Below are positions 1 through 55,795 of a stretch of DNA of 64,000 bases, piece by piece (positions within the stretch are counted from its first letter, which is position 1; each line of letters begins with the position of its first letter). The stretch covers positions 24,702,073 through 24,766,072 of the forward strand of contig NC_063181.1 in the NCBI RefSeq assembly GCF_023159225.1, given 5' to 3'. The stretch is from Perognathus longimembris pacificus. Taxonomy: Eukaryota > Chordata > Mammalia > Rodentia > Heteromyidae. Below the pieces are notes generated by a model. That model made no database searches and was not told where the DNA came from. It saw only the letters and a program-made list of their open reading frames with translations. A program made the translations under genes and the position numbers.

Positions 1-3000
1 GCAGCTGTATATCAGGGAGTAAACCTTCTGAGAATAAAAACAGCTGGAGCTTGTTAAGGTAATTACACAGGGGAAAGGATAATGTACTGGGAACTCCTCA
101 GAAGAATTTGATTTGTGGTGAGGGTAGAGAGACAAAAGCTCATTTATGAACGACATGAACATGCTGCGTAGGTAGCTGTTTATCAGTAAATATCTCCACT
201 GAGATTAATAAAAGCAGTAGCTTAATAAATTAAGTACTTCCTGGTATGGTTACTGTACGGGCAACTCCCCAAAAGAATCTTGATTGTGGTGAGGGAACAG
301 AGAAAAAAGCTCATTTAGGACCTGCACTTACGAAGGGGGTAGGCAGCTGTATATCAGGGAGTATCCCTTCTGAGAATAAAAACAGCTGGAGCTGGTTCAG
401 GTAATTACACAGGGGAAAGGATAATGTACTGGGAACTCCTCAGAAGAATCTGATTCGGGGTGAGGAGAGAGAGATAAAAGCTCATTTAGGAACGACATGA
501 AAATGCTGCATAGGTAGCTGTTTATCAGTAAATATCTCCACTGAGATTAAGAAAAGCAGTAGCTTAATAAATGAATTAATTCCTGGTATGGTTACTGTAC
601 TGGTAACTCCCCAAAAGAATCTGGATTGTGGTGAGGGAACAGAGAAAAAAGCTCATTTAGGACCTGCACTTACGAAGGGGGTAGGCAGCTGTATATCAGG
701 GAGTAAACCTTCTGAGAATAAAAACAGCTGGAGCTTGTTAAGGTAATTACACAGGGGAAAGGATAATGTACTGGGAACTCCTCAGAAGAATCTGATTTGT
801 GGTGAGGGGAGAGAGATAAAAGCTCATTTAGGAACGACATGGACATGCTGGGTAGGTAGTTGTTTATCAGTAAATATCTCCACGGAGATTGAGAAAAGCA
901 GTAGCTTAACAAATTAAGTACTTCCTGTTATGGTTACTGTACTGGTAACTCCCCAAAAGAATCTGGATTGTGGTGAGGGAACAAAGACAAAAGCTCATTT
1001 AGGACCTGCACTTACGAAGGGGGTAGGCAGCTGTATATCAGGGAGTATCCCTTCTGAGAATAAAAACAGCTGGGGCTTGTTCAGGTAATTACACAGGGGA
1101 AAGGATAATGTACTGGCAACTCCTCAGAAGAATCTGATTTGTGATGAGGGGAGACAGATAAAAGCTCATTTAAGAACGACATGAAAATGCTGCATAGTTA
1201 GCTGTTTATCAGTAAATATCTCCACAGAGATTAAGAAAAGCAGAAGCTTAATAAATTAAGTACTTCTTGGAATGCTTACTGTACTGGTAACTCCCCAAAA
1301 GAATCTGGATTGTGGTGAGGGAACAGAGAAAAAAGCTCATTTAGGACCTGCACTTACGAAGGGGATAGGCAGCTGTATATCAGGGAGTAAACCTTCTGAG
1401 ATTAAAAACAGCTGGAGCTTGTTAAGGCAATTACACAGGGGAAAGGATAATGTACTGGGAACTCCTCAGAAGAATCTGATTTGTGGTGATGGAGAGAGAT
1501 AAAAGCTCATTTAGCAACGACATGGACATGCTGCGTAGGTAGCTGTTTATCAGTAAATATATCCACTGAGATTAAGAAAAGCAGTAGCTTAATAAATTAA
1601 GTACTTCCTGGTATGGATACTTTACTGGTAACTCCCCAAAATAATCTGGATTGAGGTGAGGGAATAGACAAAAAAGCTTATTTAGGACCAGCACTTTCGA
1701 AGGGTGTAGGCAGCTGTATATCAGGGAGTATCCCTCCTGAGAATAAAAACAGCTGGAGCTTGTTAAGGTAATTACACAGGGGAAAGGATAATATACTGGG
1801 AACTCCTCAGCAGAATCTCATTTGTGGTGAGGGGAGAGAGATAAAAGCTCATTTAGGAACGACATGAAAATGCTTGATAGGTAGCTTTTTATCAGTAAAT
1901 ATCTCCACTGAGATTAAGAAAAGCAGTATCTTAATAAATTAAGTACTTCCTGGTATGGTTACTGTACTGGTAACTCCCCAAAAGAATGTGGATGGTGGTG
2001 AGGGAACAGAGAAAAAAGCTCATTCCGGACCTGCACTAACGAAGTGGGTAGGCTGCTGGATATCAGGGAGTAAACCTTCTGAGAATAAAAACAGCTGGAG
2101 CTTGTTAAGGCAATTACACAGGGGAAAAGATAATGTACTGGGAACTCCTCAGAAGAATCTGATTTGTGGTGAGGGGAGAGAGATAAAAGCTCATTTAGGA
2201 ACGACATGAACATGCTGCGTAGGTAGCTGTTTATCAGTAAATATCTCCACTGAGATTAAGAAAAGCAGTAGCTTAATAAATTAAGTACTTCCTGGTATGG
2301 TTACGGTACTGGTAACTCCCCACAAGCATCTGGATTGTGGTGAGGGAACATAGAAAAAAGCTAATTTAGGACCTGCACTTACGAAGGGGTTAGGCAGATG
2401 TATATCAGGGAGTATCTCTTCTGAGAATATAAACAGGTGGAGCTTGTTAAGGTAATTACACAGGGGAAAGGATAACGCACAGGGAACTCCTCAGAAGAAT
2501 CTGATTTGTGGTGAGGGGAGAGAGATAAAAGCTCATTTAGGAACGACATGAAAATGCTGCATAGGTAGCTGTTTATCAGTAAATATCTCCACTGACTTTT
2601 AGAAAAGCAGTAGCTTAATAAATTAAGTAATTCCTGGTATGGTTACTGTACTGGTAACTCCCCAAAAGAATCTGGAGTGTGGTGAGGGAACAGAGAAAAA
2701 AGCTCATTTAGTACCTGCACTTACGAAGGCGGTAGGCAACTGTATATCACGGAGTACACCTTGTGAGAATAAAAACAGCTGGAGCTTGTGAAAGTAATTA
2801 CATAGGGGAAAGGATAATGTACTGGGAACATCTCAGAAGAATCTGATTTTTGGTGAGGGGAGAGAGATAAAAGCTCATTTAGGAACGACATGAACATGCT
2901 GCGTAGGTAGCTGTTTATCAGTAAATATCTCCACTGTGATTAAGAAAAGCAGTAGCTTAATAAATTCATTACTTCCTGGTATGGTTACTGTACTGGTAAC

Positions 3001-6000
3001 TCCCCAAAAGAATCTGGATTGTGGTGAGGGAACAGAGAAAAAAGCTCATTTAGGACCAGTACTTACGAAGGTGGTAGGCAGCTGTATATCAGGGAGTAAA
3101 CCTTCTGAGAATAAAAACAGCTGGAGCTTTTTAAGGTAATTACACAGGGGAAAGGATAATGTACTGGGAAGTCCTCAGAAGAATCTGATTTGTGGTGAGG
3201 GGAGAGAAATTAAAGATCATTTAGGAACAACATGAACATGCTGCATAGTTAGCTGTTTATCAGTAAATATCTCCACTGAGATTAAGAAAAGCAGTAGCTT
3301 AATAAATTAAGTACTTCCTGGTATGGTTACTGTACTGGTAACTCCCCAAAATAATCTGGATTGGGGTGAGGGATCAGAGAAAAAAGCTCATTTAGGATCT
3401 GCACTTACGAAGGGGGTAGGCAGCTGTATATCAGGGAGTATCCCTTCTGAGAATAAAAACAGCTGGAGCTTGTTAAGTTAATTACACAGGGGAAAGGATA
3501 ATGTACTGGGAACTCCTCAGAAGAATCTGATTTGTGGTGAGGGGAGAGAGATAAAAGCTCATTTAGAAAGACATGAAAATGCTGCATAGGTAGCTTTTTA
3601 TCATTAAATACCTCCACTGAGATTAAGAAAAGCTGTAGCTTAATAAATTAAGTAGTTCCTGTTATGGTTACTGTACTGGTAACTCCCCAAAAGAATCTGG
3701 ATTCTGGTGAGGGAACAGAGATAATAGCTCATATAGGACATGCACTTACGAAGGGGGTAGGCAGCTGTATATCAGGGAGTATCCCTTCTGAGAATAAAAA
3801 CAGCTGGCGAATGTTAAGGTAATTACACAGGGGAAAGGATAATGTACTGGGAACTACTCAGAAGAATCTGATTTGTGGTGAGGGGAGAGAGATAAAAGAT
3901 CATTCATGAACGACATGAAAATGCTGCATAGGTAGCTGTTTATCAGTAAATATCTCCACTGAGATTAAGAAAAGCAGTAGCTTAACAAATTAAGTACTTC
4001 CTGGTATGGATACAGTACTGGTAACTCCCCAAAAGAATCTGGATTATGGTGAGGGAACAGAGAAAAAAGCCCATTTAGGACCTGCACTTACGTAGGGGGT
4101 AGGCAGCTGTATATCAGGGAGTATCCCTTCTGAGAATAAAAACAGATGGAGCTTGTTAAGGTAATTACACAGGGAAAAGGATAATGTATTAGGAACTTCT
4201 CTGAAGAATCTGATTTGTGGTGAGGGGAGAGAGATAAAAGCTCATTTAGGAACGACATGAACATACTGCATAGGTATCTGTTTATCAGTAACAATCTCCA
4301 CTGAGATTAAGAAAAGCAGTAGTTTAATAAATTAAGTACTTCCTGGTATGGTTACTGTACTGGTAACTCCCCAAAAGAATCTGGATTTTGGTGAGGGAAC
4401 AGAGAAAAAAGCTCATTTAGGAACTGCACTTACGAAGGGGGTAGGCAGCTGTATATCAGGGAGTAAACCTTCTGAGAATAAAAACAGCTGGACCTTGTTA
4501 AGGTAATTAAACACGGGAAAGGATAATGTACTGGGAACTCCTCAGAAGTATCTGATTTGTGGTGAGGGGAGAGAGATAAAAGATCATTTAGTAACGACAT
4601 GATCATGCTGCTTAGGTAGCTGATTATCAGTAAATATCTCCCCTGAGATTAAGAAAACCAGTAGCTTAATAAATTAAGTACTTCCTGGTATGGATATTGT
4701 ACTGGTAACTCCCCAAAGAATCTGGAATGTGGTGAGGGAACAGAGAAAAAAGCTCATTTAAGACCTGCAATTACGAAGGTGGTAGGCAGCTGCATATCAG
4801 GGAGTAAACCTTCTGAGAATAAAAACAGCTGGAGCTTGTTAAGGTAATTACACAGGGGAAAGGATAATGTACTGGGAACTCTTCAGAAGAATCTGATTTG
4901 TTGTGAGGGGAGAGTGATAAAAGCTCATTTAGGAATGACATGAACATGCTGCGTAGGTCGCTGTTTATCAGTAAATATCTTCACGGAGATTAAGAAAAGC
5001 AGTAGATTAATAGATTAAGTACTTCCTGGTATGGTTACTGTACTGGTAACTCCCCAAAAGAATCTGGATTGTGGTGAGGGAAGAGAGAAAAAAGCTCATT
5101 TATGTCCTGCACTTACGAGGGGGGTAGACAGCTGTATATCAGGGAGTAACCCTTCTGAGAATAGAAACAGCTGGAGCTTGTTAAGGTAAATACACAGGGG
5201 AAAGGATTATGTACTGGGAACTCCTCAGAAGAATCTGATTTGTGGTGAGGGGAGAGAGATAAGAGCTCATTAAGAACGACATGTAAATGCTGCATAGGTA
5301 GCTGCTTATCAGTAAATATCTCCTCTGAGATTAAGAAAAGCAGTAGCTTAATAAATTAAGTACTTCCTTGTATGGTTACTGTACTGGTAACTCCCCAAAA
5401 GAATCTGGATTGTGGTGAGGGAACAGAGAAAAAAGCTCATATAGGACCTGCACTTACGAAGGGGGTAGGCAGCTGTATATCAGGGAGTAAACCTTCTGAG
5501 CATAAAAACAGCTGGATCTTGTTAAGGTAATTACACAGAGGAAAGGATAATGTACTGGGAAAATCCTCAGAAGAATTTGATTTGTGGTGAGGGGAGAGAG
5601 ATAAAATGTCATTTTGGAACGACATGAACATGCTGCGTAGGTAGCTGTTTATCAGTAAATATCTCCACTGAGATTAAGAAAAGCAGTAGCTTAATAAATT
5701 AAGTACTTCCTGGTATGGTTACTGTAGTGGTAACTCCCCAAAATTGTTTGTATTGTGTTGAGGGAACAGAGAAAAAAGCTCATTTAGTCCTGCACTTACG
5801 AAGGGGGTAGGCAGCTGTATATCAGGGAGTATCCCTTCTGAGAATAAAAACAGCTGGAGCTTGTTAAGGTAATTACACACGCGAAAGGATAATGTACTGG
5901 GAACTCCTCAGAAGATTCTGCATTGTGGTGAGGGGAGAGAGATTAAAGCTCATTTCGGAACGACATGAAAATGCTGCATAGGTAGCTGTTTATCAGTAAA

Positions 6001-7148
6001 TATCTCCACTGAGATTAAGAAAAGCAGTAGCTTAATAAATTAAGTACTTCCTGGAATGGTTACTGTACTGATAACTCCCCAAAAGAATTTGGATTGTGTT
6101 TAGGGAACAGAGAAAAAAGCTCATTTAGGACCAGCACTTACCAAGGGGGTAGGCAGCTGTATATCAGGGAGTATAACTTCTGAGAATAAAAGCAGCTGCA
6201 GCTTGTTAGGGTAATTACACAGGGGAAAGGATAATGTACTGGGAACTCCTCAGAAGAATCTGATTTGTGGTTAGGGGAGAGAGATAAAAGCTCATTTCAT
6301 AACGACATGAACATGCTGCGTAGGTAGCTGTTTATCAGTAAATATCTCCACTGAGATTAAGAAAAGCAGTAGCTTAATAAATTAAGTACTTCCTGGTATG
6401 GTTACTGTACTGGTAACTCCCCAAAAGAATCTGGATTGTGGTGAGGGAACACAGGAAAAAGCTCATTTAGGACCTGCACTTACGAAGGCGGTAGGCAGCT
6501 GTATATCAGGGAGTATCCCTTCTGAGAATAAAAACAGCTGGAGCTTGTTAAGGTAATTACACAGGGGAAAGGATAATGTACAGGGAACTCCTCAGAAGAA
6601 TCTGATTCGTGGTTGAGGGGAGAGAGATAAAAGCTCATTTAGGACGACATGAAAATGCTTCATAGGTAGCTGTTTATCAGTAAATATCTCCGCTGAGATT
6701 AAGAAAAGCAGTAGCTTAATAAATTAAGTACTTCCTGGTATGGTTACTGTACTGGGTACTCCCAAAAAGAATCTGGATTGTGGTGAGGGATCAGAGAAAA
6801 AAGCTAATTTAGGACCTGCACTTACGAAGGGGGTAGGCAGCTGTATATCAGTGAGTATCCCTTCTGAGAATAAAAACAGCTGGAGCTTGTTAAGGTAATT
6901 ACACAGGGGAAAGGATAATGTACTGGGAACTCCTCAGAAGAATCTGATTCGTGGTGAGGGTAGAAAGATAAAAGCTCATTTAGCAATGACATGAAAATGC
7001 TGCGTAGGTAGCTGTTTATCAGTAAATATCTCCACTGAGATTAAGAAAAGCAGTAGCTTAATAAATTAAGTACTTCCTGGTATGGGTACTGTACTGGTAA
7101 CTCCCCAAAAGAATCTGGATTGTGGTGAGGGAACAGAGAAAAAAGCTC
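1..7148 (+). repeat. 342-bp dimeric satellite array, block 1
   Basis: Head-to-tail units with a 342-bp period: the anchor ctggtatgg or a close variant starts at 241, 583, 925, 1267 and 1608. Each unit holds two related halves of 171 bp. Monomer A begins near tactggtaactccccaaaag and monomer B near tactgggaactcctcagaag. They agree best over their first 65 bp or so (both run to gctcattt) and more loosely after that. Units here differ from one another at many scattered positions, with many B monomers reading atgaaaatgctgcata and A monomers reading gggagtatccctt. I see no gene in this stretch. The satellite name is not known to me. Confidence 0.97.
7139..7148. repeat. LINE-1 target-site duplication, left copy
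   Basis: The satellite bases aaaaaagctc stand immediately left of the LINE-1 and are repeated at 8860-8869, where the satellite resumes in the same register (gctcatttagg). The implied nick on the opposite strand is after a T run (tttttt/ctc), close to the LINE-1 endonuclease preference. Confidence 0.85.
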
Positions 7149-7692
7149 TGCATATTTTTTAGAGATGAGGCCTTTGTCTGTTGAATGTCCGGTAAAGATC
7201 TTCTCCCAGTCTGTGGGCTTTCTGTTTATCTTGAGAGCTATGTCCTTTGCCGTGCAGAAGCTCTGGAGTTTGATGCAGTCCCATTTGTCCAACCTTTCTT
7301 TGATTTGTAGCCTTTTAGGGACTTTGTTAAGGAAGTTCTGTCCTGTGCCAAGGACCCCAAGTGTTTCTCCTACTCCTTCCTTTAGTGTCTTCAGGGTGCC
7401 TGTTTTGATTTCAAGGTCTTTAATCCATTTGGAATTGATTTTGGTGCAGGGTGATATATAAGGATCTAGTTTTAGTTTGTTGCATGTGTTGAGCCAGTTT
7501 TGCCAGCACCACTTGTTAAAGAGGCTATCTTTCTTCCATACTATTGTTTTAGCTCCTTTATCAAAGATTAAGTAGGCATAGTTCTGTGGGTTTAATTCTG
7601 GGTCTTCAATTCTGTTCCATTGGTCTTCAGGCCTGTTCCGGTGCCAATACCAAGCTGTTTTTATTACTATAGCTTTATAATTACCTTCTTCC
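7149..7692 (-). pseudogene. LINE-1 ORF2 fragment, inverted 5' segment
   Basis: The minus strand encodes an ORF2p segment downstream of the reverse-transcriptase domain. Recognisable landmarks are YKAIVIKTAWYWHRNR, LIFDKGAKTIVWKKDSLFNK, WCWQNWL, KLKLDPYISPCTKINSKWIK and LKSFC-like LQSFCTAKDIALKINRKPT, ending at GLISKKYAEL. The frame is uninterrupted inside the element. It runs into satellite sequence at both ends, so the longer open frame at 7041-7838 is a chimera and not a gene. The protein would normally be the endonuclease/reverse transcriptase that copies LINE-1 RNA at its target. This piece lacks both catalytic domains and is non-functional. The left boundary shares the bases ctc with the target, so it is exact to only a few bases. 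Confidence 0.93.
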
Positions 7693-8346
7693 AAAACAAA
7701 ACTACAAAGAACCAATAGCCCCCTCATCAAGTGGGCTAAAGACTTGCAAAGAAACTTCTCTGATGAGGAAATGAGAATGGCCAATAGACATATGAAAAAA
7801 TGCTCTACATCACTGGCCATAAAGGAAATGCAAATCAAAACAACATTGAGATTTCATCTCACCCCAGCAAGAATGTCATATATCAAGAAAACTAATAATA
7901 ACAATTGTTGGAGGGGATGTGGCCAAAAGGGAACCCTACTTCATTGTTGGTGGGAATGTAAACTGGTTCAGCCACTCTGGCAAGCAGTATGGAGATTCCT
8001 AAGAAGCCTCAATATAGAACTCCCCTATGACCCAGCAGCCCCACTGTTGGGTATCTACCCAAAAACCCACAAACAAAATCACAGTAATGCCACCAGCACA
8101 ACAATGTTCATCGCAGCACAATTTGTCATAGCGAGAATCTGGAACCAACCCAGATGCCCCTCCATAGATGAATGGATCAGGAAAATGTGGTACATTTACA
8201 CAATGGAATTTTATGCCTCTATCAGAAAGAATGATATTGTTCCATTTGTAAGGAAATGGAAGGACTTGGAAAAAGTTATACTAAGTGAAGTGAGCCAGAC
8301 CCAAAGAAACATGGACTCTATGGCCTCCCTTATTGGGAATAATTAG
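7693..8346 (+). pseudogene. LINE-1 ORF2 C-terminal fragment
   Basis: The plus strand encodes the ORF2p C-terminus, from about [18 protein letters not shown] through [18 protein letters not shown], the cysteine-rich stretch [36 protein letters not shown] and SLIGNN to a stop at about 8344. The C-terminal cysteine motif of LINE-1 ORF2 is visible and complete. The frame is open back to about 7700, and there is no start codon of its own because the piece is the 3' half of an inverted insertion. It continues in ORF2 order from the reversed fragment on its left. It has no catalytic domain, so it is a dead fragment. Confidence 0.94.
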
Positions 8347-8859
8347 TACAGGTTTAGGCAAGCCAGAGCAGAGCATCACAAGGCCCAATAGCTATACACT
8401 TAGAAACAAATAAGGGGATGCTAAGTGAAATGAACTCCATGTTATGGAAACAAGTGATATATCACAGTTGTAACTACTTTCAACGTGCTATGTGTTTGTG
8501 TAGTTTCTATTATTGATGATGTTTTGTATCAACTTCCTATGTTTGTACCTACACTATCTCTGTAATCTTATCTGAGTATATTGGAAACCGTGTTTACTGG
8601 TATTGGAAGTAGGAAATTCAAAGGGAATACCAAATTCGAGAAACACAGGGTAAAAAAAGAGAAATAACTACAAAAGCAATACTTGCAAAACTGTTTGGTG
8701 TAAGTGAACTGAACACCTGGAGGGATAGGGAAAGGGGGGGAGAGAGGGGGCCATGAGGGACAAGGCAACAAACAGTAAAAGAAATGTATCCAATGACCAA
8801 CGTAGGATACTGTAACCTCTCTGTACGTCAGTTTGATAATAAAAATTTAAGAAAAAAAT
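8347..8859 (+). other. LINE-1 3' UTR and A-rich tail
   Basis: Non-coding 3' end of the LINE-1. It contains a purine-rich stretch at about 8720-8760 (aaaggggggggagagagggg), typical of L1 3' UTRs, then ctctctgtacgtcagtttg, a polyadenylation signal in gataataaaaattt near 8835, and an A-rich tail broken by g and t that ends at 8859. The short open frames read on the other strand here are not genes. Confidence 0.9.
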
Positions 8860-8869
8860 AAAAAAGCTC
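8860..8869. repeat. LINE-1 target-site duplication, right copy
   Basis: aaaaaagctc directly follows the LINE-1 tail and matches 7139-7148. The first As cannot be told apart from the tail, so the duplication could be slightly shorter or longer. Confidence 0.82.
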
Positions 8870-9808
8870 ATTTAGGACCTGCACTTACGAAGGGCGTAGG
8901 CAGCTGTATATCAGAGAGTAAACCTTCTGAGAATAAAAACAGCTGGAGCTTGTTAAGGTAATTAAACAGGCGAAAGGATAATGTACTGGGAACTCCTCAG
9001 AAGAATCTGATTTTTGGTGAGGGGAGAGAGATAAAAGCTCATTTAGGAACGACATGAACATGCTGCTTAGGGAGCTGTTTATCAGTAAATATCTCCACTG
9101 AGATTAAGAAAAGCAGTAGCTTAATAAATTAAGTACTCCTGGTATGGTTACTGGACTGGAAATTCCCCAAAAGAGTCTGGATTGTGGTGAGGGAACAGAG
9201 AAAAAAGCTCATTTAGGACGTGCACTTACGAAGGGGGTATGCAGCTGTGTATCAGGGACTATCCCTTCTGAGAATAAAAACAGCTGGACCTTGTTAGGGT
9301 AATTACACAGGGGAAAGGATAATATACTGGGAACTCCTCAGAAGAATCTGATTTGTGGTGAGGGGAGAGAGATAAAAGCTCATTTAGGAACAACATGAAA
9401 ATGCTGCCTAGGTAGCTGTTTATCAGTAAATATCTCCACTGAGATTAAGAAAAGCAGTAGCTTAATAAATTAAGTACTTCCTGGTATGGTTACTCTACTG
9501 GTAACTCCCCAAAAGAATCTGGATTGTGGTGAGGGAACAGAGAAAAAAGCTCATTTAGGACCTGCACTTACGAAGGGGGTAGGCAGCTGTATATAAGGGA
9601 GTAAAGCTTCTGAGAATAAAAACAGCTGGAGCTTCTTAAGGCAATAATACCGGGGAAAGGATAATGTACTGGGAACTCCTCAGAAGAATCTGATTTGGGG
9701 TGAGGGGATAGAGATAAAAGCTCATTTATGAACGACATGAACATGCTGCGTAGGTAACTGTTTATCAGTAAATATCTCAGCTGAGATTAAGAAAAGCAGT
9801 AGCTTAAT

Positions 9809-12256
9809 AGATTAAGTACTTCCTGGTATGGTTACTGTACTGGTAACTCCCCAAAAGAATCTGGATTGTGGTGAGGGAACAGAGAAAAAAGCTCATTTAT
9901 GACCTGCACTTACGAAGGGATTAGGCAGCTGTATATCAGGGAGTATCCCTTCTGAGAATAAAAACAGCTGGAGCTTGTTAAGGTAATTACACAGGGGAAA
10001 GGATAATGTACTGGGAACTCCTCAGAAGAATCTGAATTGTGGTGAGGGGAGAGATATAAAATCTCATTTAGGAACGCCATGAAAATGCTGCATAGGTATG
10101 TATTTATCAGTAAATATCTCCACTAAGATTAAGAAAAGCAGTAGCTTAATTAATTTGTACTTCCTGGTATGGTTACTGTACTGGTAACTCCCCAAAAGAA
10201 TCTGGATTGTGGCGAGGGAACAGAGAAAAAAGCTCATTTAGGACCTGCACTTACGAAGGGGGTAGGCAGCTGTATATCAGGGAGTAAACCTTCTGAGAAT
10301 AAAAACAGCTGGAGCTTGTTAAAGTAATTACACAGGGGAAAGGATAATGTACTGGGAACTCCTCAGAATAATCTGATTTGTGGTGAGGGGAGAGAGATAA
10401 AAGCTCATTTAGGAACGACATGAACATGCTGTGTATGTAGCTGTTTATCAGTAAATATCTCCACTGAGATTAAGAAGAGCAGTAGCTTAATAAATTAAGT
10501 ACTTCCTGGTATGGTTAATGTACTGGTAATTCCCCTAAAGAATCTGGATTGTGGTGAGGGAACAGAGAAAAAAGCTCATTTAGGTCTTGCTCTTATGATG
10601 GGGGTAGGCTGTTGTATATCAGGGAGTATCCCTTCTGAGAATAAAAACAGCTGGAGCTTGTTAAGGTAATTACACAGGGGAAAGGATAATGTACTGGGAA
10701 CTCCTCAGAAGAATCTGATTTCTGGTGAGGGGAGAGAGATAAAAGGTCATTCAAGAACGACATGAATATGCTGTGTTGGTAGCTGTTTATCAGTAAATAT
10801 CTCCACTGAGATTAAGAAGAGCAGTAGCTTAATAAATTAAGTACTTCCTGGTATGGTTACTGTACTGGTAACTCCCCAAAAGAATCTGGATTTTGGTGAG
10901 GGAACAGAGAAAAAATCTCATTTCGGACCTGCACTTACGAAGGAGGTAGGCAGCTGTATATCAGGGAGTATCCCTTCTGAGAATAAAAACAGCTGGAGAT
11001 TGTTAAGGTAATTACACAGGGGAAAGGATAATGTACTGGGAACTCCTCAGAAGAATCTGATTGGTGGTGAGGGGAGAGAGATAAAAGCTCATTTAGGAAC
11101 GACTCGAAATGTTGCGTAGGTAGCTGTTTATAAGTAAATATCTCCACTGAGATTAAGAAAAGCAGTAGCTTAATAAATTAAGTACTTCCTGGTATGGTTA
11201 CTGTACTGGTAACTCCCCAAAAGAATCTGGATTGTGGTGAGGGAACAGAGAAAAAAGCTCATTTATGACCTGCACTTACGAAGGGATTAGGCAGCTGTAT
11301 ATCAGGGAGTATCCCTTCTGAGAATAAAAACAGCTGGAGCTTGTTAAGGTAATTACACAGGGGAAAGGATAATGTACTGGGAACTCCTCAGAAGAATCTG
11401 AATTGTGGTGAGGGGAGAGATATAAAATCTCATTTAGGAACGCCATGAAAATGCTGCATAGGTATGTATTTATCAGTAAATATCTCCACTAAGATTAAGA
11501 AAAGCAGTAGCTTAATTAATTTGTACTTCCTGGTATGGTTACTGTACTGGTAACTCCCCAAAAGAATCTGGATTGTGGCGAGGGAACAGAGAAAAAAGCT
11601 CATTTAGGACCTGCACTTACGAAGGGGGTAGGCAGCTGTATATCAGGGAGTAAACCTTCTGAGAATAAAAACAGCTGGAGCTTGTTAAAGTAATTACACA
11701 GGGGAAAGGATAATGTACTGGGAACTCCTCAGAAGAATCTGATTTGTGGTGAGGGGAGAGAGATAAAAGCTCATTTAGGAACGACATGAACATGCTGTGT
11801 ATGTAGCTGTTTATCAGTAAATATCTCCACTGAGATTAAGAAGAGCAGTAGCTTAATAAATTAAGTACTTCCTGGTATGGTTAATGTACTGGTAATTCCC
11901 CTAAAGAATCTGGATTGTGGTGAGGGAACAGAGAAAAAAGCTCATTTAGGTCTTGCTCTTATGATGGGGGTAGGCTGTTGTATATCAGGGAGTATCCCTT
12001 CTGAGAATAAAAACAGCTGGAGCTTGTTAAGGTAATTACACAGGGGAAAGGATAATGTACTGGGAACTCCTCAGAAGAATCTGATTTCTGGTGAGGGGAG
12101 AGAGATAAAAGGTCATTCAAGAACGACATGAATATGCTGTGTTGGTAGCTGTTTATCAGTAAATATCTCCACTGAGATTAAGAAGAGCAGTAGCTTAATA
12201 AATTAAGTACTTCCTGGTATGGTTACTGTACTGGTAACTCCCCAAAAGAATCTGGA
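9809..12256 (+). repeat. Higher-order duplication, 1,366-bp offset (four dimers)
   Basis: About 1.08 kb from 9809 to 10890 recurs at about 11175-12256, offset 1,366 bp. Both copies carry private variants such as gctcatttatgacctgcact with gaagggattaggc (9890s and 11260s), the loss of two bases in taattaatttgtacttcc, and the odd taggtcttgctcttatgatg. I noticed one difference (cagaataatctg at about 10366 against cagaagaatctg). This is a recent tandem duplication of four dimers. Confidence 0.85.
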
Positions 12257-12359
12257 TTGTGGTGAGGGAACAGAGAAAAAAGCTCATTTAGGCCCTGCAC
12301 TTACAAAGGGGGTAGGCAGCTGTATATCAGGGAGTAAACCTTCTGAGAATAAAAACAGC

Positions 12360-30923: not shown

Positions 30924-30924
30924 A

Positions 30925-33151: not shown

Positions 33152-33192
<41 letters not shown>

Positions 33193-35222: not shown

Positions 35223-35224
35223 GA

Positions 35225-38279: not shown

Positions 38280-38960
38280 TTCCTGGTATGGTTACTCTAC
38301 TGGTAACTCAGCAAAAGAATCTGGATTGTATTGAGGCAACAGAGAAAAAAGCTCATTTAGGACCTGCAATTACGAAGGGGTAGGCAGCTGTATATCAGGG
38401 AGTAAACCTTCTGAGAATAAAAACAGCTGGAGCTTGTTAAGGTAATTACACAGGGGAAAGGATAATGTACTGGGAAATCCTCAGAAGAATCTGATTTGTG
38501 GTGAGGGGAGAGAGATAAAAGCTCATTTAGGAACGACATTAACATGCTGCGTAGGTAGCTGTTTATCAGTAAATATCTCCACTGAGATTAAGAAATCAGA
38601 AGCTTAATAATTTAAGTACTTCCTGGTATGGTTACTGTACTGGTAACTCCCCAAAATATTCTGGATTGTGGTGAGGGAACAGAGAAAAAAGCTCATTTAG
38701 GACCTGCACTTACGAAGGGGGTAGGCAGCTGTATATCAGGGAGTATCGCTTCTGAGAATAAAAACAGCTGGAGCTTGTTACGGTAATTACACAGGGGAAA
38801 GCATAATGTACTGGGAACTCCTCAGAAGAATCTGATTTGTGGTGAGGGGAGAGAGATAAAAGCTCATTTAGGAACGACATGAACAAGCTGCGTATGTAGC
38901 TGTTTATCAGTAAATATCTCCACTGAGATTAAGAAAAGCAGTAGCTTAATAATTTAAGTA
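38280..38960 (+). repeat. Satellite segment shared with the higher-order blocks
   Basis: Matches 41868-42548 at a 3,588-bp offset. It includes the rare ctcagcaaaagaatctgg with gtattgaggcaacag, the aacgacattaacatg variant and the shortened gaaatcagaagc. It is a fragment of the block that appears three times further right. Confidence 0.85.
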
Positions 38961-44000: not shown

Positions 44001-45960
44001 TGTACTTACGAAGGGGGTAGGCAGCTGTATATCAGGGAGTAAACCTCCTGAGAATAAAAACAGCTGGAGCTTGTTAAGGTAATTCAACTGGGGAAAAGAT
44101 GAAGTACTGGGAACTCCTCAGAAGAATCTGATTTGTGGTGAGGGGAGAGAGATAAAAGCTCATTTAGGAACGACATGAACATGCTGCATACGTAGCTGTT
44201 TATCAGTAAATATCTCCACTGAGATTAAGAAAAGCAGTAGCTTAATAAATTAAGTACTTCCTGGTATGGTTACTGTACTGGTAACTCCCCAAAAGAATCT
44301 GGATTGTGGTGAGGGAACAGAGAAAAAGTTCATTTAGGACCTACACATACGAAGGGGGTAGGCAGCTGCATATCAGGGAGTAAAACGTCTGAGAATAAAA
44401 GCAGCTGGAGCTTGTTAAGGTAATTACACAGGGGAAAGGATAATGTACTGGGAACTCCTCAGAAGAATCTGATTTGTGGTGAGGGGAGAGAGATTAAAGC
44501 TCATTTAGGAACGACATGAACTTGCTGCATATGTAGCTGTTTATCAGAAAATATCTCCTCTGAGATTAAGAAAAGCAGCAGCTTAATAAATTAAGTACTT
44601 CCTGGTATGGTTACTGTACTGGTAACTCTCCAAAAGAATCTGGATTGTGTTGAGGGAACAGAGAAAAAGTTCATTTAGGACCTACACATACGAAGGGGGT
44701 AGGCAGCTGCATATCAGGGAGTAAAACGTCTGAGAATAAAAGCAGCTGGAGCTTGTTAAGGTAATTACACAGGGGAAAGGATAATGTACTGGGAACTCCT
44801 CAGAAGAATCTGATTTGTGGTGAGGGGAGAGAGATTAAAGCTCATTTGGAACGACATGAACTTGTTGCATATGTAGCTGTTTATCAGAAAATATCTCCCC
44901 TGAGATTAAGAAAAGCAGCAGCTTAATAAATTAAGTACTACCTGGTATGGTTACTGTACTGGTAACACCCCAAAAGAATCTGGATTATGGTGAGGGAACA
45001 GAGAAAAAAGCTCATTTAGGACCTGCACTTACGAAGGGGTTAGGCAGCTGTATATCAGGGAGTAAACCTTCTGAGAATAAAAACAGCTGGAGCTTGTTAA
45101 GGTAATTAAACAGGGGAAAAGGTGAAGTAATGGGAACTCCTTAGTAGAATCTGATTCGTGGTGAGGGGAGAGAGATAAAAGCTCATTTAGGAATGACATG
45201 AACATGCTTCATACGTAGATGTTTATCAGTAAATATCTCCACTGAGATTAAGAAAAGCAGTAGCTTAATAAATTAAGTACTGCCTGGTATGTTTACTGTA
45301 CTATTAATTCCCCAAAAGAATCTGGATTGTGGTGAGGGAACAGAGAAAAAAGCTCATTTAGGACATGCACTTACGAATGTGGTAGGCAGCTGTATATCAG
45401 GGAGTAAACCTTCTGAGAATAAAAACAGCTGGAACTTGTTAAGGTAATTACACAGGGGAAAGGATAATGTACTGGGAACTCCTCACAAGAATCTGATTTG
45501 TGGTGAGGGGAGAGAGATAAAAGCTCATTTATGAACTACATGAACATGCTACTTAGGTAGCTGTTTATCAGTAAATATCTCCACTGAGATTAAGAAAAGC
45601 AGTAGCTTAATAAATTAAGTACTTCCTGGTATGGTTACTGTACTGGTAACTCCACAACAGAATCTGGATTGTGGTGAGGGAACAGAGAATAAAGCTCATT
45701 TAGGACCTGCACTTACGAAGGGGGTAGGCAGTTGTATATCAGGGAGTAAACCTTCTGAGAATAAAAACAGCTGGAGCTTGTTAAGGTAATTACACAGGGG
45801 AAAGGATAATGTACTGGGAACTCCTCAGAAGAATCTGATTTGTGGTGAGGGGAGAGAGATAAAAGCTCATTTAGAACGACATGAACATGCTGCGAAGGTA
45901 GCTGTTTATCAGTAAATATCTCCACTGAGATTAAGAAAAGCAGTAGCTTAATAATTTAAG
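41100..45960 (+). repeat. Large higher-order block, copy 1
   Basis: A run of about 14 dimers plus one 171-bp monomer, each dimer with its own variants. It recurs at about 46390-50920 and in part at 51905-55795. Offset to copy 2 is 5,291 bp up to about 43580, then 4,949 bp, because copy 2 lacks one dimer (about 43577-43918, cgaagcgggtaggc). Confidence 0.88.
41358..41528 (+). repeat. Single 171-bp hybrid monomer (A/B register slip)
   Basis: Anchors at 41358 and 41529 are one monomer apart. The 5' part is A (ctccccaaaagaatctgc) and the 3' part is B (gtgaggggagagagataaaag). It matches the hybrid at 46649, so that pair descends from one event by block duplication. Confidence 0.88.
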
Positions 45961-46389
45961 TACTTCCTGGTAAGGTTACTGTACTGGTAACTTCCCAAAA
46001 GAATCTGGATTGTGGTGAGGGAACAGAGAAAAAAGCTCATTTAGGACCTGGACTTACGAAGGGGGTAGGCAGCTGTATATCAGGGAGTAAACATTCTGAG
46101 AATAAAAACAGCTGGAGCTTGTTAAAGTAATTACACAGGGGAAAGGATAATGTACTGGGAACTCCTCAGAAGAATCTGATTTGTGGTGAGGGGAGAGAGA
46201 TAAAAGCTCATTTAGGAACGACATGAACATGCTGCGTAGGTAGCTGTTTATCAGTAAATATCTCCACTGAGATTAAGAAAAGCAGTAGCTTAATAAATAA
46301 AGTACTACCTGGTATGGTTACTGTACTGGTAAATCCCCAATAGAATCTGGATTGTGGTGAGGGAACAGAGAAAATAGCTCATTTAGGAC

Positions 46390-49300
46390 CTGCACTTACG
46401 AAGGGGGTAGGCAGCTGTATATCAGGGAGTCTCTTCTGAGAATAAAAACAGCTGGAGCTTGTTAAGGTAATTACACAGGGGAAAGGATAATGTACTCGGA
46501 ACTCCTCAGAAGAATCTGATTTGTGGTGAGGGGAGAGAGATAAAAGCTCATTTAGGAACGACATGAACGTGCTGCATATGTAGCTGTTTATCAGTAAATA
46601 TCTCCACTGAGATTAAGAAAATCATTAGCTTAATAAATTAAGTACTTCCTGGTATGGATACTGTACTGGTAACTCCCCAAAAGAATCTGCATTGTGGTGA
46701 GGGGAGTGAGATAAAAGCTCATTTAGGAACGACATGAACATGCTGCGTAGGTAGCTGTTTATCAGTAAATATCTCCACTGAGATTAAGAAAAGCAGTAGC
46801 TTAATAAATTAAGTACTTCCTGGTATGGTTACTGTACTGGTAACTCCCCAATAGAATCTGGATTGTGGTGAGGGAACAGAGAAAAAAGCTCATTTAGGAC
46901 CTGCACTTACAAAGGGGGTAGGCAGCTGTATATCAGGGAGTATCGCTTCTGAGAATAAAAATAGCTGGAGCTTGTTAAGGTAATTACACAGGGGAAAGGA
47001 TAAAGTACTGGGAACTCCTCAGAAGAATCTGATTTGTGGTGAGGGGAGAGAGATAAAAGCTCATTTAGGAACGACATGAACAAGCTGCGTTCGTAGCTGT
47101 TTATCCGTAAATATCTCCACTGAGATTAAGAAAAGCAGTAGCTTAATAAATTAAGTACTTCCTGGTATGGTTAGTCTACTGGTAACTCAGCAAAAGAATC
47201 TGGATTGTATTGAGGCAACAGAGAAAAAAGCTCATTTAGGACCTGCAATTACGAAGGGGTAGGCAGCTGTATATCAGGGAGTAAACCTTCTGAGAATAAA
47301 AACAGCTGGAGCTTGTTAAGGTAATTACACAGGGGAAAGGATAATGTACTGGGAAATCCTCAGAAGAATCTGATTTGTGGTGAGGGGAGAGAGATAAAAG
47401 CTCATTTAGGAACGACATTAACATGCTGCGTAGGTAGCTGTTTATCAGTAAATATCTCCACTGAGATTAAGAAATCAGAAGCTTAATAATTTAAGTACTT
47501 CCTGGTATGGTTACTGTACTGGTAACTCCCCAAAATATTCTGGATTGTGGTGAGGGAACAGAGAAAAAAGCTCATTTAGGACCTGCACTTACGAAGGGGG
47601 TAGGCAGCTGTATATCAGGGAGTATCGCTTCTGAGAATAAAAACAGCTGGAGCTTGTTACGGTAATTACACAGGGGAAAGCATAATGTACTGGGAACTCC
47701 TCAGAAGAATCTGATTTGTGGTGAGGGGAGAGAGATAAAAGCTCATTTAGGAACGACATGAACAAGCTGCGTATGTAGCTGTTTATCAGTAAATATCTCC
47801 ACTGAGATTAAGAAAAGCAGTAGCTTAATAAATTAAGTACTACCTGGTATGGTTACTCTACTGGTAACTCCCCAAAAGAATCTGGATTGTGGTGAGGGAA
47901 CAGAGAAAAAAGCTCATTTAGGGCCTATACTTACGAAGGGGGTAGGCAGCTTTATATCAGGGAGTAAACCTTCTGAGAATAAAAACAGCTGGAGCTTGTT
48001 ACGGTAATTACACAAGGGAAAGCATAATGTACTGGGAACTCCTCAGAAGAATCTGATTTGTGGTGAGGGGAGAGAGATAAAAGGTCATTAAGAACGACAT
48101 GAACATGCTGCCTAGGTAGCTGTTTATCAGTAAATATCTCCACTGAGATTAAGAAAAGCAGTAGCTTAATAAATTAAGTACTTCCTGTTATGGTTACTGT
48201 ACTGGTAACTCCCCAAAAGAATCTGGATTGTGGTGAGGGAAGAGAGAAAAAAGCTCATTTAGGACCTGCACTTACGAAGGGGGTAGGCAGCTGTTTATCA
48301 GGGAGTAAACCTTATGAGAATAAAAACAGCTGGAGCTTGTTAAGGTAATTACACAGGGGAAAGGATAATGTACTGGGACCTCCTCAGAAGAATCTGATTT
48401 GTGGGGAGGGGAGAGAGATAAAAGCTCATTTAGGAACGACATGAACATACTGCGTAGGTAGCTGTTTATCAGTAAATATCTCCACTGAGATTAAGAAAAG
48501 CAGTAGCTTAATAAATTAAGTACTACCTGGTATGGTTACTGTACTGGTAACTCCCCAAAAGAATCTGGATTGTGGTGAGGGAACAGAGAAAAAAGCTTAT
48601 TAATATCTGCACTTACGAAGGGGGTAGGCAGCTGTATATCAGGGAGTAAACCTTCTGATAATAAAAACAGCTGAAGCTTGTTAAGGTAATTACACAGGGG
48701 AAAGGATAATGTACTGGGAACTCCTCAGAAGAATCTGATTTGAGGTGAGGGGAGAGAGATAAAAGCTCATTTAGGAACGACATGAACATTCTGCGTACGT
48801 AGCTGTTTATCAGTAAATATCTACACTGACATTAAGAAAAGCAGTAGCTTAATAAATTAAGTACTTCCTGGTATGGTTACTGTACTGGTAACTCCCCAAA
48901 AGAATCTGGATTGTGGTGAGGGAACAGAGAAAAAAGCTCATTTAGGACCTGTACTTACGAAGGGGGTAGGCAGCTGTATATCAGGGAGTAAACCTCCTGA
49001 GAATAAAAACAGCTGGAGCTTGTTAAGGTAATTCAACTGGGGAAAAGATGAAGTACTGGGAACTCCTCAGAAGAATCTGATTTGTGGTGAGGGGAGAGAG
49101 ATAAAAGCTCATTTAGGAACGACATGAACATGCTGCATACGTAGCTGTTTATCAGTAAATATCTCCACTGAGATTAAGAAAAGCAGTAGCTTAATAAATT
49201 AAGTACTTCCTGGTATGGTTACTGTACTGGTAACTCCCCAAAAGAATCTGGATTGTGGTGAGGGAACAGAGAAAAAGTTCATTTAGGACCTACACATACG

Positions 49301-51300
49301 AAGGGGGTAGGCAGCTGCATATCAGGGAGTAAAACGTCTGAGAATAAAAGCAGCTGGAGCTTGTTAAGGTAATTACACAGGGGAAAGGATAATGTACTGG
49401 GAACTCCTCAGAAGAATCTGATTTGTGGTGAGGGGAGAGAGATTAAAGCTCATTTAGGAACGACATGAACTTGCTGCATATGTAGCTGTTTATCAGAAAA
49501 TATCTCCTCTGAGATTAAGAAAAGCAGCAGCTTAATAAATTAAGTACTTCCTGGTATGGTTACTGTACTGGTAACTCTCCAAAAGAATCTGGATTGTGTT
49601 GAGGGAACAGAGAAAAAGTTCATTTAGGACCTACACATACGAAGGGGGTAGGCAGCTGCATATCAGGGAGTAAAACGTCTGAGAATAAAAGCAGCTGGAG
49701 CTTGTTAAGGTAATTACACAGGGGAAAGGATAATGTACTGGGAACTCCTCAGAAGAATCTGATTTGTGGTGAGGGGAGAGAGATTAAAGCTCATTGGAAC
49801 GACATGAACTTGTTGCATATGTAGCTGTTTATCAGAAAATATCTCCCCTGAGATTAAGAAAAGCAGCAGCTTAATAAATTAAGTACTACCTGGTATGGTT
49901 ACTGTACTGGTAACACCCCAAAAGAATCTGGATTATGGTGAGGGAACAGAGAAAAAAGCTCATTTAGGACCCTGCACTTACGAAGGGGTTAGGCAAGCTG
50001 TATATCAGGGAGTAAACCTTCTGAGAATAAAAACAGCTGGAGCTTGTTAAGGTAATTAAACAGGGGAAAAGGTGAAGTAATGGGAACTCCTTAGTAGAAT
50101 CTGATTCGTGGTGAGGGGAGAGAGATAAAAGCTCATTTAGGAACGACATGAACATGCTTCATACGTAGATGTTTATCAGTAAATATCTCCACTGAGATTA
50201 GAAAAGCAGTAGCTTAATAAATTAAGTACTGCCTGGTATGTTTACTGTACTATTAATTCCCCAAAAGAATCTGGATTGTGGTGAGGGAACAGAGAAAAAA
50301 GCTCATTTAGGACATGCACTTACGAATGGGGTAGGCAGCTGTATATCAGGGAGTAAACCTTCTGAGAATAAAAACAGCTGGAGCTTGTTAAGGTAATTAC
50401 ACAGGGGAAAGGATAATGTACTGGGAACTCCTCACAAGAATCTGATTTGTGGTGAGGGGAGAGAGATAAAAGCTCATTTAGGAACTACATGAACATGCTA
50501 CTTAGGTAGCTGTTTATCAGTAAATATCTCCACTGAGATTAAGAAAAGCAGTAGCTTAATAAATTAAGTACTTCCTGGTATGGTTACTGTACTGGTAACT
50601 CCCCAACAGAATCTGGATTGTGGTGAGGGAACAGAGAATAAAGCTCATTTAGGACCTGCACTTACGAAGGGGGTAGGCAGTTGTATATCAGGGAGTAAAC
50701 CTTCTGAGAATAAAAACAGCTGGAGCTTGTTAAGGTAATTACACAGGGGAAAGGATAATGTACTGGGAACTCCTCAGAAGAATCTGATTTGTGGTGAGGG
50801 GAGAGAGATAAAAGCTCATTTAGAACGACATGAACATGCTGCGAAGGTAGCTGTTTATCAGTAAATATCTCCACTGAGATTAAGAAAAGCAGTAGCTTAA
50901 TAAATTAAGTACTTCCTGGTATGGTTACTGTAGTGGTAACTCCCCAAAAGAATCTGGATTGTGGTGAGGGAACAGAGAAAAAAGCTCATTTAGGACCCTG
51001 CAGTTTCGAAGGGGTAGGCACCTGTATATCAGGGAGTAAACCTTCTGAGAATAAAAAACAGCTGGAGCTTGTTAAGGTAATTACACAGGAGAAAGGATAA
51101 TGTACTGGGAAATCCTCAGAAGAATCAGATATATGGTGAGGGGAGAGAGATAAAAGCTCATTTAGGAACGACATGAACATGCTGCGTAAGTAGCTGTTTA
51201 TCAGTAAATATCTCCACTGAGATTAAGAAAAGCAGTAGCTTAATAAATTCAGTACTTCCTGGTATGGTTATTGTACTGGTAACTCCCCAAAAGAATCTGG
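46390..51300 (+). repeat. Large higher-order block, copy 2
   Basis: Second copy of the block at 41100-45960, less one dimer. It is almost base-for-base identical, for example ggttagtctactgg against ggttactctactgg. Small differences such as an extra c in aggaccctgcac and a lost a in gagattagaaaagc separate it from the other copies. Confidence 0.88.
46649..46819 (+). repeat. Single 171-bp hybrid monomer, duplicate of that at 41358
   Basis: Anchors at 46649 and 46820 are 171 bp apart. The A-to-B switch point and the catta variant upstream are the same as at 41358, with one difference (gagtgagat for gagagagat). Confidence 0.87.
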
Positions 51301-51904
51301 ATTGTGGTGAGGGAAGAGAGAATAAAGCTCATTTAGGACCTGCACTTACGAAGCAGGTAGGCAGCTGTATATCAGGGAGTAAACCTTCTGAGAATAAAAA
51401 CAGCTGGAGCTTGTTAAGGTAATTACACAGGGGAAAGGATAATGTACTGGGAACTCCTCAGAAGAATCTGATTTGTGGTGAGGGGAGAGAGATAAAAGCT
51501 CATTTAGGAACGACATGAACATGCTGCGTAGGTACCTTTTTATCAGTAAATATCTCCACTGCGATTAAGAAAAGCAGTAGCTTAATAAATTAAGTACTTC
51601 CTGGTATGGTTACTGTACTGGTAACTCCCCAAAAGAATCTGGATTGTAGTGAGGGAACAGAGAAAAAAGCTCATTTAGGACCTGCACTTACGAAGGGGGT
51701 AGGCAGCTGTATATCAGGGAGTAAACCTTCTGAGAATAAAAACAGCTGGAGCTTGTTAAGGTAATTACACAGGGCAAAGGATAATGTACTGGGAACTCCT
51801 CAGAAGAATCTGATTTGTGGTGAGGGCAGAGAGATTAAGGCTCATTTAGGAACGACATGAACATGCTGCGTAGGTAGCTGTTTATCAGTAAATATCTCCA
51901 CTGA

Positions 51905-54900
51905 GATTAAGAAATCAGAAGCTTAATAATTTAAGTACTTCCTGGTATGGTTACTGTACTGGTAACTCCCCAAAATATTCTGGATTGTGGTGAGGGAACA
52001 GAGAAAAAAGCTCATTTAGGACCTGCACTTACGAAGGGGGTAGGCAGCTGTATATCAGGGAGTATCGCTTCTGAGAATAAAAACAGCTGGAGCTTGTTAC
52101 GGTAATTACACAGGGGAAAGCATAATGTACTGGGAACTCCTCAGAAGAATCTGATTTGTGGTGAGGGGAGAGAGATAAAAGCTCATTTAGGAACGACATG
52201 AACAAGCTGCGTATGTAGCTGTTTATCAGTAAATATCTCCACTGAGATTAAGAAAAGCAGTAGCTTAATAAATTAAGTACTACCTGGTATGGTTACTCTA
52301 CTGGTAACTCCCCAAAAGAATCTGGATTGTGGTGAGGGAACAGAGAAAAAAGCTCATTTAGGGCCTATACTTACGAAGGGGGTAGGCAGCTTTATATCAG
52401 GGAGTAAACCTTCTGAGAATAAAAACAGCTGGAGCTTGTTACGGTAATTACACAAGGGAAAGCATAATGTACTGGGAACTCCTCAGAAGAATCTGATTTG
52501 TGGTGAGGGGAGAGAGATAAAAGGTCATTAAGAACGACATGAACATGCTGCCTAGGTAGCTGTTTATCAGTAAATATCTCCACTGAGATTAAGAAAAGCA
52601 GTAGCTTAATAAATTAAGTACTTCCTGTTATGGTTACTGTACTGGTAACTCCCCAAAAGAATCTGGATTGTGGTGAGGGAAGAGAGAAAAAAGCTCATTT
52701 AGGACCTGCACTTACGAAGGGGGTAGGCAGCTGTTTATCAGGGAGTAAACCTTATGAGAATAAAAACAGCTGGAGCTTGTTAAGGTAATTACACAGGGGA
52801 AAGGATAATGTACTGGGACCTCCTCAGAAGAATCTGATTTGTGGGGAGGGGAGAGAGATAAAAGCTCATTTAGGAACGACATGAACATACTGCGTAGGTA
52901 GCTGTTTATCAGTAAAATATCTCCACTGAGATTAAGAAAAGCAGTAGCTTAATAAATTAAGTACTACCTGGTATGGTTACTGTACTGGTAACTCCCCAAA
53001 AGAATCTGGATTGTGGTGAGGGAACAGAGAAAAAAGCTTATTAATATCTGCACTTACGAAGGGGGTAGGCAGCTGTATATCAGGGAGTAAACCTTCTGAT
53101 AATAAAAACAGCTGAAGCTTGTTAAGGTAATTACACAGGGGAAAGGATAATGTACTGGGAACTCCTCAGAAGAATCTGATTTGAGGTGAGGGGAGAGAGA
53201 TAAAAGCTCATTTAGGAACGACATGAACATTCTGCGTACGTAGCTGTTTATCAGTAAATATCTACACTGACATTAAGAAAAGCAGTAGCTTAATAAATTA
53301 AGTACTTCCTGGTATGGTTACTGTACTGGTAACTCCCCAAAAGAATCTGGATTGTGGTGAAGGAACAGAGAAAAAAGCTCATTTAGGACCTGTACTTACG
53401 AAGGGGTAGGCAGCTGTATATCAGGGAGTAAACCTCCTGAGAATAAAAACAGCTGGAGCTTGTTAAGGTAATTCAACTGGGGAAAAGATGAAGTACTGGG
53501 AACTCCTCAGAAGAATCTGATTTGTGGTGAGGGGAGAGAGATAAAAGCTCATTTAGGAACGACATGAACATGCTGCATACGTAGCTGTTTATCAGTAAAT
53601 ATCTCCACTGAGATTAAGAAAAGCAGTAGCTTAATAAATTAAGTACTTCCTGGTATGGTTACTGTACTGGTAACTCCCCAAAAGAATCTGGATTGTGGTG
53701 AGGGAACAGAGAAAAAGTTCATTTAGGACCTACACATACGAAGGGGGTAGGCAGCTGCATATCAGGGAGTAAAACGTCTGAGAATAAAAGCAGCTGGAGC
53801 TTGTTAAGGTAATTACACAGGGGAAAGGATAATGTACTGGGAACTCCTCAGAAGAATCTGATTTGTGGTGAGGGGAGAGAGATTAAAGCTCATTTAGGAA
53901 CGACATGAACTTGCTGCATATGTAGCTGTTTATCAGAAAATATCTCCTCTGAGATTAAGAAAAGCAGCAGCTTAATAAATTAAGTACTTCCTGGTATGGT
54001 TACTGTACTGGTAACTCTCCAAAAGAATCTGGATTGTGTTGAGGGAACAGAGAAAAAGTTCATTTAGGACCTACACATGGGTAGGCAGCTGCATATCAGG
54101 GAGTAAAACGTCTGAGAATAAAAGCAGCTGGAGCTTGTTAAGGTAATTACACAGGGGAAAGGATAATGTACTGGGAACTCCTCAGAAGAATCTGATTTGT
54201 GGTGAGGGGAGAGAGATTAAAGCTCATTTGGAACGACATGAACTTGTTGCATATGTAGCTGTTTATCAGAAAATATCTCCCCTGAGATTAAGAAAAGCAG
54301 CAGCTTAATAAATTAAGTACTACCTGGTATGGTTACTGTACTGGTAACACCCCAAAAGAATCTGGATTATGGTGAGGGAACAGAGAAAAAAGCTCATTTA
54401 GGACCTGCACTTACGAAGGGGTTAGGCAGCTGTATATCAGGGAGTAAACCTTCTGAGAATAAAAACAGCTGGAGCTTGTTAAGGTAATTAAACAGGGGAA
54501 AAGGTGAAGTAATGGGAACTCCTTAGTAGAATCTGATTCGTGGTGAGGGGAGAGAGATAAAAGCTCATTTAGGAACGACATGAACATGCTTCATACGTAG
54601 ATGTTTATCAGTAAATATCTCCACTGAGATTAAGAAAAGCAGTAGCTTAATAAATTAAGTACTGCCTGGTATGTTTACTGTACTATTAATTCCCCAAAAG
54701 AATCTGGATTGTGGTGAGGGAACAGAGAAAAAAGCTCATTTAGGACATGCACTTACGAATGGGGTAGGCAGCTGTATATCAGGGAGTAAACCTTCTGAGA
54801 ATAAAAACAGCTGGAGCTTGTTAAGGTAATTACACAGGGGAAAGGATAATGTACTGGGAACTCCTCACAAGAATCTGATTTGTGGTGAGGGGAGAGAGAT

Positions 54901-55795
54901 AAAAGCTCATTTAGGAACTACATGAACATGCTACTTAGGTAGCTGTTTATCAGTAAATATCTCCACTGAGATTAAGAAAAGCAGTAGCTTAATAAATTAA
55001 GTACTTCCTGGTATGGTTACTGTACTGGTAACTCCCCAACAGAATCTGGATTGTGGTGAGGGAACAGAGAATAAAGCTCATTTAGGACCTGCACTTACGA
55101 AGGGGGTAGGCAGTTGTATATCAGGGAGTAAACCTTCTGAGAATAAAAACAGCTGGAGCTTGTTAAGGTAATTACACAGGGGAAAGGATAATGTACTGGG
55201 AACTCCTCAGAAGAATCTGATTTGTGGTGAGGGGAGAGAGATAAAAGCTCATTTAGAACGACATGAACATGCTGCGAAGGTAGCTGTTTATCAGTAAATA
55301 TCTCCACTGAGATTAAGAAAAGCAGTAGCTTAATAAATTAAGTACTTCCTGGTATGGTTACTGTAGTGGTAACTCCCCAAAAGAATCTGGATTGTGGTGA
55401 GGGAACAGAGAAAAAAGCTCATTTAGGACCTGCAGTTTCGAAGGGGGTAGGCACCTGTATATCAGGGAGTAAACCTTCTGAGAATAAAAACAGCTGGAGC
55501 TTGTTAAGGTAATTACACAGGAGAAAGGATAATGTACTGGGAAATCCTCAGAAGAATCAGATATATGGTGAGGGGAGAGAGATAAAAGCTCATTTAGGAA
55601 CGACATGAACATGCTGCGTAAGTAGCTGTTTATCAGTAAATATCTCCACTGAGATTAAGAAAAGCAGTAGCTTAATAAATTCAGTACTTCCTGGTATGGT
55701 TATTGTACTGGTAACTCCCCAAAAGAATCTGGATTGTGGTGAGGGAAGAGAGAAAAAAGCTCATTTAGGACCTGCACTTACGAAGCAGGTAGGCA
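51905..55795 (+). repeat. Large higher-order block, copy 3 (cut by the gap)
   Basis: Matches copy 2 from about 47465 on, offset 4,440 bp falling to 4,433 bp (close to 13 dimers). Small indels differ, for example a 10-base loss in cctacacatgggtaggc near 54075. It ends at the run of N. Confidence 0.88.

Follow-up and report, generated by a model that had tools for sequence, protein, structure and literature searches.

The 64,000-bp stretch of DNA analysed here (C21:24702073-24766072, hereafter the window) is very probably part of the centromere region of a Pacific pocket mouse chromosome. We consider it likely that the window falls in the centromeric satellite array of the mid-sized C21, and that this array represents a new family in which a 171-bp ancestral unit was amplified as a 342-bp A-B dimer. 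An initial annotation of the window had put the satellite forward as a centromeric or pericentromeric candidate, and this proposal is well supported by a mid-chromosome block on C21, by the occurrence of the satellite in 9 of 20 unplaced contigs, and by a homogeneous core with aged flanks.

Dimer structure, higher-order repeats and insertions

Tandem satellite makes up ~79% of the window, or about 50 kb, which is the array size originally estimated. Across positions 1-55795, the periods detected by Tandem Repeats Finder are 171 and 342 bp, and a dynamic-programming decomposition with two monomer consensuses, A and B, yields 299 monomers in five blocks, nearly all of them 170 or 171 bp long (144 full A and 145 full B monomers). 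Their order is ABAB, with same-type neighbours at only 3 of 294 adjacent pairs. The two consensuses, 171 bp each, are 72.1% identical, against 51.5% on average and 56.5% at most when B is shuffled 300 times and compared with A, which bears out the earlier description of a 342-bp period with two homologous 171-bp halves. Sampled monomer pairs are 93.1% (A-A), 93.4% (B-B) and 69.3% (A-B) alike, and individual copies are ~96% like their own consensus. Within the satellite, autocorrelation gave no convincing period for a 10-bp AA/TT/TA rotational signal, and dyad symmetry is not enriched (7 dyads versus 4.7 +/- 2.6 in shuffles). A structured-RNA origin was also considered and rejected, as an Rfam search of the window at gathering scores returned no match.

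Three of the blocks run on the forward strand (1..7148, 8860..28684 and 35887..55795), the third reaching an assembly gap of 500 N (55796..56295). The initial annotation had drawn one array over 1..55795. Satellite is indeed found there, but it is not continuous: a LINE-1 element (7149-8859) interrupts it, and so does an endogenous retrovirus (28685-35886). The array also extends past 55795, as the same satellite resumes in inverted orientation beyond the gap, in two reverse-strand blocks (56296..58185 and 62428..64000), the second of which continues past the window to about 24.821 Mb on C21.

The dimers are further organized into higher-order repeats. Over all 10,153 dimer pairs the mean identity is 93.1%, and the 51 pairs that exceed 99% line up as diagonal runs: 12 dimers recurring at a lag of 13 dimers (99.5% identity), 8 at a lag of 4 (99.3%), 7 at a lag of 15 (99.5%), and 4 at a lag of 8 (99.9%). 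When dimer order was shuffled within blocks, the longest run was 2 or 3 in each of 200 trials, so the higher-order structure suggested initially is confirmed by the 8- and 12-dimer runs. The runs at lags 4 and 8 define a 4-dimer unit of about 1,361 bp on the forward strand at 12315..16404, the end being approximate, and the 12 dimers at 99.5% belong to a 13-dimer repeat (about 4.4 kb) present as two adjoining forward-strand copies at 47262..55795. In the first block (1..7148), two dimer haplotypes alternate in a largely regular manner, giving a 684-bp unit. A strict array-wide higher-order repeat is ruled out, as the identity between dimers hardly changes with their distance at most lags, the local runs alone standing above this level. 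These local runs above 99%, together with the 684-bp alternation, indicate recent local amplification on an older dimer array.

Three insertions interrupt the satellite. The element at 7149..8859, on the forward strand, which by eye we take to be the 3' end of a LINE-1 whose 5' part is inverted, is bounded by a 10-bp target duplication (7139-7148 and 8860-8869), and the satellite phases of its flanks overlap by the same 10 bp; two of its frames gave no Pfam match. An ERVK-like endogenous retrovirus lies on the reverse strand at 28685..35886, identified by self-comparison, flank phases and Pfam matches in separate pieces (GP41, integrase core, RT thumb and Gag p10), with LTRs at about 28685-29345 and 35225-35886 that are 98.5% alike. 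This insert has no target duplication, and the satellite phase is shifted by about 80 bp between its two flanks; these features suggest that the array recombined or lost sequence during or after the insertion. An IAP-like gag-dUTPase retroviral element, also on the reverse strand (58186..62427), splits the inverted satellite; its LTRs (about 58186-58532 and 62081-62427) are 97.7% alike, its target duplication is 5-6 bp, and Pfam matches in separate pieces comprise Gag p10, p24, zinc knuckles and dUTPase, the gag piece having its nearest relative in Dipodomys (72%). Given a rodent substitution rate of about 2-5 x 10^-9 per site per year, the LTR differences of the two retroviral elements correspond to roughly 1-6 million years.

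Abundance, chromosomal position and polarity

An exact 32-mer of monomer A occurs 157,884 times in the genome (77,317 + 80,567), and its reversed control does not occur at all. At one 32-mer per dimer, this amounts to at least 54 Mb of satellite. The window retains 54 exact copies for its 144 full A monomers, and if this retention held elsewhere the genome-wide total would be ~144 Mb. Among 20 evenly spaced unplaced contigs, from each of which one 400-base sample was taken, the satellite is the commonest class, and in the nine that carry it the match to the consensus is 95-100%, except for one 60-base piece at 91.7%. According to the assembly paper, the unanchored ~290 Mb seems to consist mostly of heterochromatin and centromeric repeats (PMC9348616). 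A second abundant satellite, AT-rich, with GTCGAC motifs and a period of ~480 bp, was seen in 6 of the 20 contigs; parts of its unit are 75-78% similar to other parts.

Our chromosomal placement is based on C21, less fully on C1, and on C2 in part. On C21 (45.66 Mb), 7 of 20 ten-kb loci sampled at 22-27 Mb contain the satellite, all seven within 24.60-24.86 Mb, and two of these hold only 304 and 139 bases of it. In the sampled loci the array forms one mid-chromosome block of ~185 kb, at about 24.636-24.821 Mb, the middle of which is absent from the assembly, and five short samples at 24.615-24.635 Mb contain no satellite. Small isolated bits of diverged satellite were also observed beyond the array on either side, at ~24.6097-24.61 Mb (about 86% like the consensus) and at 24.86 Mb (about 77%). 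On C1 (163 Mb), the matches listed include 75 places, all at 64.341-64.441 Mb, and the chromosome looks complete in this respect because the matches listed go on to C2 (25 places). Pieces of cytochrome b, of mitochondrial origin, were encountered at the scaffold ends: in 15 scaffolds they are found no more than about 36 kb from the left end, always on the reverse strand, and in C1, C2 and C21 forward-strand pieces occur close to the right end (for example C1:25324, C2:20069, C3:21507, C7:20081, C21:33422 and C21:45636398). They look like a nuclear mtDNA copy spread with subtelomeric duplication.

The satellite on C21 has forward orientation to the left of the gap and reverse orientation to the right of it, out to the arms. 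On C1 it is forward in the matches listed and in both flanks, and on C2 the outer block is reverse and the matches listed are forward. Because a scaffold gap sits at the point of the switch on C21, the switch may be a scaffolding error. No N run occurs in the C21 loci read on the right side, which omit stretches of about 4 and 10 kb there, coverage of the left side being less complete, and a true flip in the missing middle seems likelier than an error of scaffolding.

A more sceptical view would be that we are dealing with an ordinary heterochromatic satellite with no centromere role, comparable to a knob, or that the C21 block is itself an artefact of scaffolding, in that contigs could be misplaced or misoriented at the gap where the orientation switches. 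Chromosome 18 of the assembly is described in the assembly paper as having a repetitive span of >20 Mb (PMC9348616), and large heterochromatic blocks outside centromeres may therefore exist in this genome. However, at the right edge of the C21 array the satellite is joined to non-satellite arm sequence inside one unbroken locus (L052), at the left edge it starts between two adjacent loci (L035 and L053), and C1 has a single mid-chromosome cluster among the matches listed. We consider this view very improbable, and retain that of a centromeric array.

The homogeneous core and its aged flanks

Apart from insertions, the core of the C21 array consists of A-B dimers at about 93-98% (means per ten monomers) from ~24.641 to 24.808 Mb. 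Outside the core, on both sides, the mean best identity is 0.83-0.85 per locus, where L053 includes the core edge, and the A-B order is lost; the outer limits of the diverged monomers are ~24.636 Mb (left) and ~24.821 Mb (right). Same-type neighbours account for 55 of 178 cases in six flank loci on C21, C1 and C2 (compared to 3 of 294 in the window core), although some of these neighbours may not touch, since monomers with a best identity <=0.68 or a length outside 155-185 bp were dropped. Among the 184 flank monomers kept, 31 are about equidistant from A and B, a state found in 0 of 289 monomers of the window core. Clustering of 208 rows (the 184 flank monomers, 22 core monomers and the two consensuses) recovers a third, intermediate class that shows 0.83 identity with A and 0.85 with B. 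A tree of 473 monomers, built by approximate maximum likelihood, groups the 144 core A monomers as one clade (support 0.97) and 144 of the 145 core B monomers in a clade with 3 flank monomers (support 0.77). The flank classes do not resolve as clean clades, and this is most marked for the third class (best F1 0.49). Mean terminal branches are 0.012-0.014 in the core versus 0.053-0.076 in the flank classes.

The flanks also differ from the core in a directional manner. Modern A and its flank relative differ at 12 sites, at 10 of which the flank has the B-like state, and modern B and its flank relative differ at 15 sites, at 11 of which the flank has the A-like state. At 21 of 27 differing sites combined, the flank thus carries the state shared with the other monomer type, which indicates that the flanks keep shared, and most simply ancestral, states.

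The status of the intermediate monomers is less clear-cut, as they could be A-B recombinants produced by conversion rather than survivors of an ancestral type. Of the 31 sites that separate the flank A-like consensus from the B-like one, the intermediate consensus matches A at 15 and B at 16, with no third state. Its private sites number only 2, and from about position 100 onward all its matches are to B. The intermediate class not being a clade in the tree points the same way, and without an outgroup ancestral and recombinant monomers look alike. Against recombination, the matches over the first ~77 positions of the intermediate consensus are interspersed (15 A, 5 B) instead of marking one clean crossover, and the outer left C21 flank and the C2 block contain intermediate and B-like monomers without any that are A-like. 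The right C21 flank, however, has A-like monomers throughout, to its outer part, so that the layering is not strict. We regard recombination as a serious possibility, somewhat less probable than not.

This pattern of core and flank fits a satellite centromere that grows from within, as in the model of core amplification and ageing at the edges described for alpha satellite (PMC2729386). Under such a model, unequal exchange and local amplification would keep the young core homogeneous and leave higher-order repeats behind, and expansion of the core from within would push older, less ordered monomers to both flanks, where they would decay. Kinetochore nucleosomes containing CENP-A would then most likely sit on the core, with about one to each 171-bp unit and no contribution from a CENP-B box, and the remainder of the array would pack as pericentromeric heterochromatin. 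From sequence, the A-B core is a candidate kinetochore repeat only, and the phasing of nucleosomes, the manner of expansion and the presence of the satellite at all centromeres are likewise predictions.

Could the A-B satellite instead be confined to pericentromeric heterochromatin, as is the major satellite of mouse, with the kinetochore assembled elsewhere, possibly on the ~480-bp satellite or on sequence missing at the gap? The abundance of that second satellite in the unplaced contigs makes it a possible kinetochore repeat, and the A-B consensus has no CENP-B box. On the other hand, the A-B satellite reaches the C21 gap from both sides, its blocks in the window leave no room for the ~480-bp satellite outside the annotated inserts, and a homogenized core with aged flanks on both sides is what marks the active core in alpha satellite. 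We find a purely pericentromeric role unlikely, and favour the A-B core as the centromeric repeat.

Comparison with known satellites

Among rodents, the closest parallel in period is PMsat, the centromere satellite of Peromyscus, at 344-346 bp; the part of the source covered makes no mention of a dimer structure for it (PMC6733818). Neither of two PMsat primer sites has a match in the window at up to 3 mismatches, and identity with PMsat was rejected on their absence, the comparison being by primers and not by the full PMsat sequence. The major and minor satellites of mouse have units of 234 and 120 bp, and those of kangaroo rats have units of about 10 bp or shorter. Like the satellite described here, these are abundant rodent satellites of pericentromeric, centromeric or heterochromatic location, but they differ from it in unit length, the distinction being made on these lengths and not on sequence. 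Our search of the open-access literature found no paper describing this satellite, and the main text of the assembly paper, as covered, contains no description of it (PMC9348616).

Homology to alpha satellite was examined by aligning the satellite with a human alpha consensus. The best local score was 20 on either strand, which 60 and 64 of 300 shuffles also reached; alpha-satellite homology is therefore rejected, and the judgement in the initial annotation that the sequence is not alphoid stands. Part of the monomers of human alpha satellite carry a CENP-B box. The pocket mouse consensus has none, its best site matching 6 of 9 core bases, which 488 of 500 Markov shuffles equalled or bettered. 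Across the window and eleven C21, C1 and C2 loci, sites with 8 of 9 core bases were noted only at window position 8634, within the LINE-1 3' end and outside the satellite, and at L019:6623. If it is the kinetochore repeat, the satellite would thus work without CENP-B sites.

As it is not alpha by sequence and lacks the PMsat primer sites, we class the satellite as a new family. Our best reading is that it is a main centromeric satellite of this rodent, and that the family evolved an alpha-like architecture independently. A broader hypothesis, which we put forward tentatively and with slightly less than even confidence, is that this rodent lineage independently evolved the whole alpha-satellite programme, from a 171-bp ancestor through B-like and intermediate types to an A-B takeover and core higher-order repeats, with dead layers towards either arm and no CENP-B box involved; and that the opposite polarities of the two C21 arms, with aged flanks on both sides, against the single polarity seen on C1, would be consistent with a centric fusion or with an inversion spanning the C21 centromere. 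If true, centromere architecture would follow from recombination and the holding of nucleosomes rather than from alpha sequence or CENP-B, and one chromosome would bear a possible mark of fusion or inversion. The flank monomers would offer a rodent system in which older sequence states are preserved. The satellite is also a candidate centromere probe for the endangered Pacific pocket mouse, in which karyotype variation has raised concern about outbreeding, as noted in the assembly paper (PMC9348616).

Alpha satellite, as characterized in earlier work (PMC4053949, PMC2729386), has a 171-bp unit, a higher-order homogeneous core and older, irregular flank monomers, and takes the form of a 343-bp dimer in New World monkeys. 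The pocket mouse satellite resembles it in its ~171-bp monomer, its higher-order repeats and its homogeneous core with older flanks (on both sides of C21, the layering not being strict), and its 342-bp A-B dimer resembles the New World monkey form. It is unlike primate alpha satellite in having no detectable sequence similarity to it, a consensus without a CENP-B box, and a rodent host, whose cytochrome b is nearest to that of Perognathus merriami (94%). The alphoid-like geometry first proposed thus holds for the architecture and not for membership in alpha satellite, and the pocket mouse satellite separates the plan of 171-bp unit, dimer and higher-order repeat from both alpha sequence and the CENP-B box.
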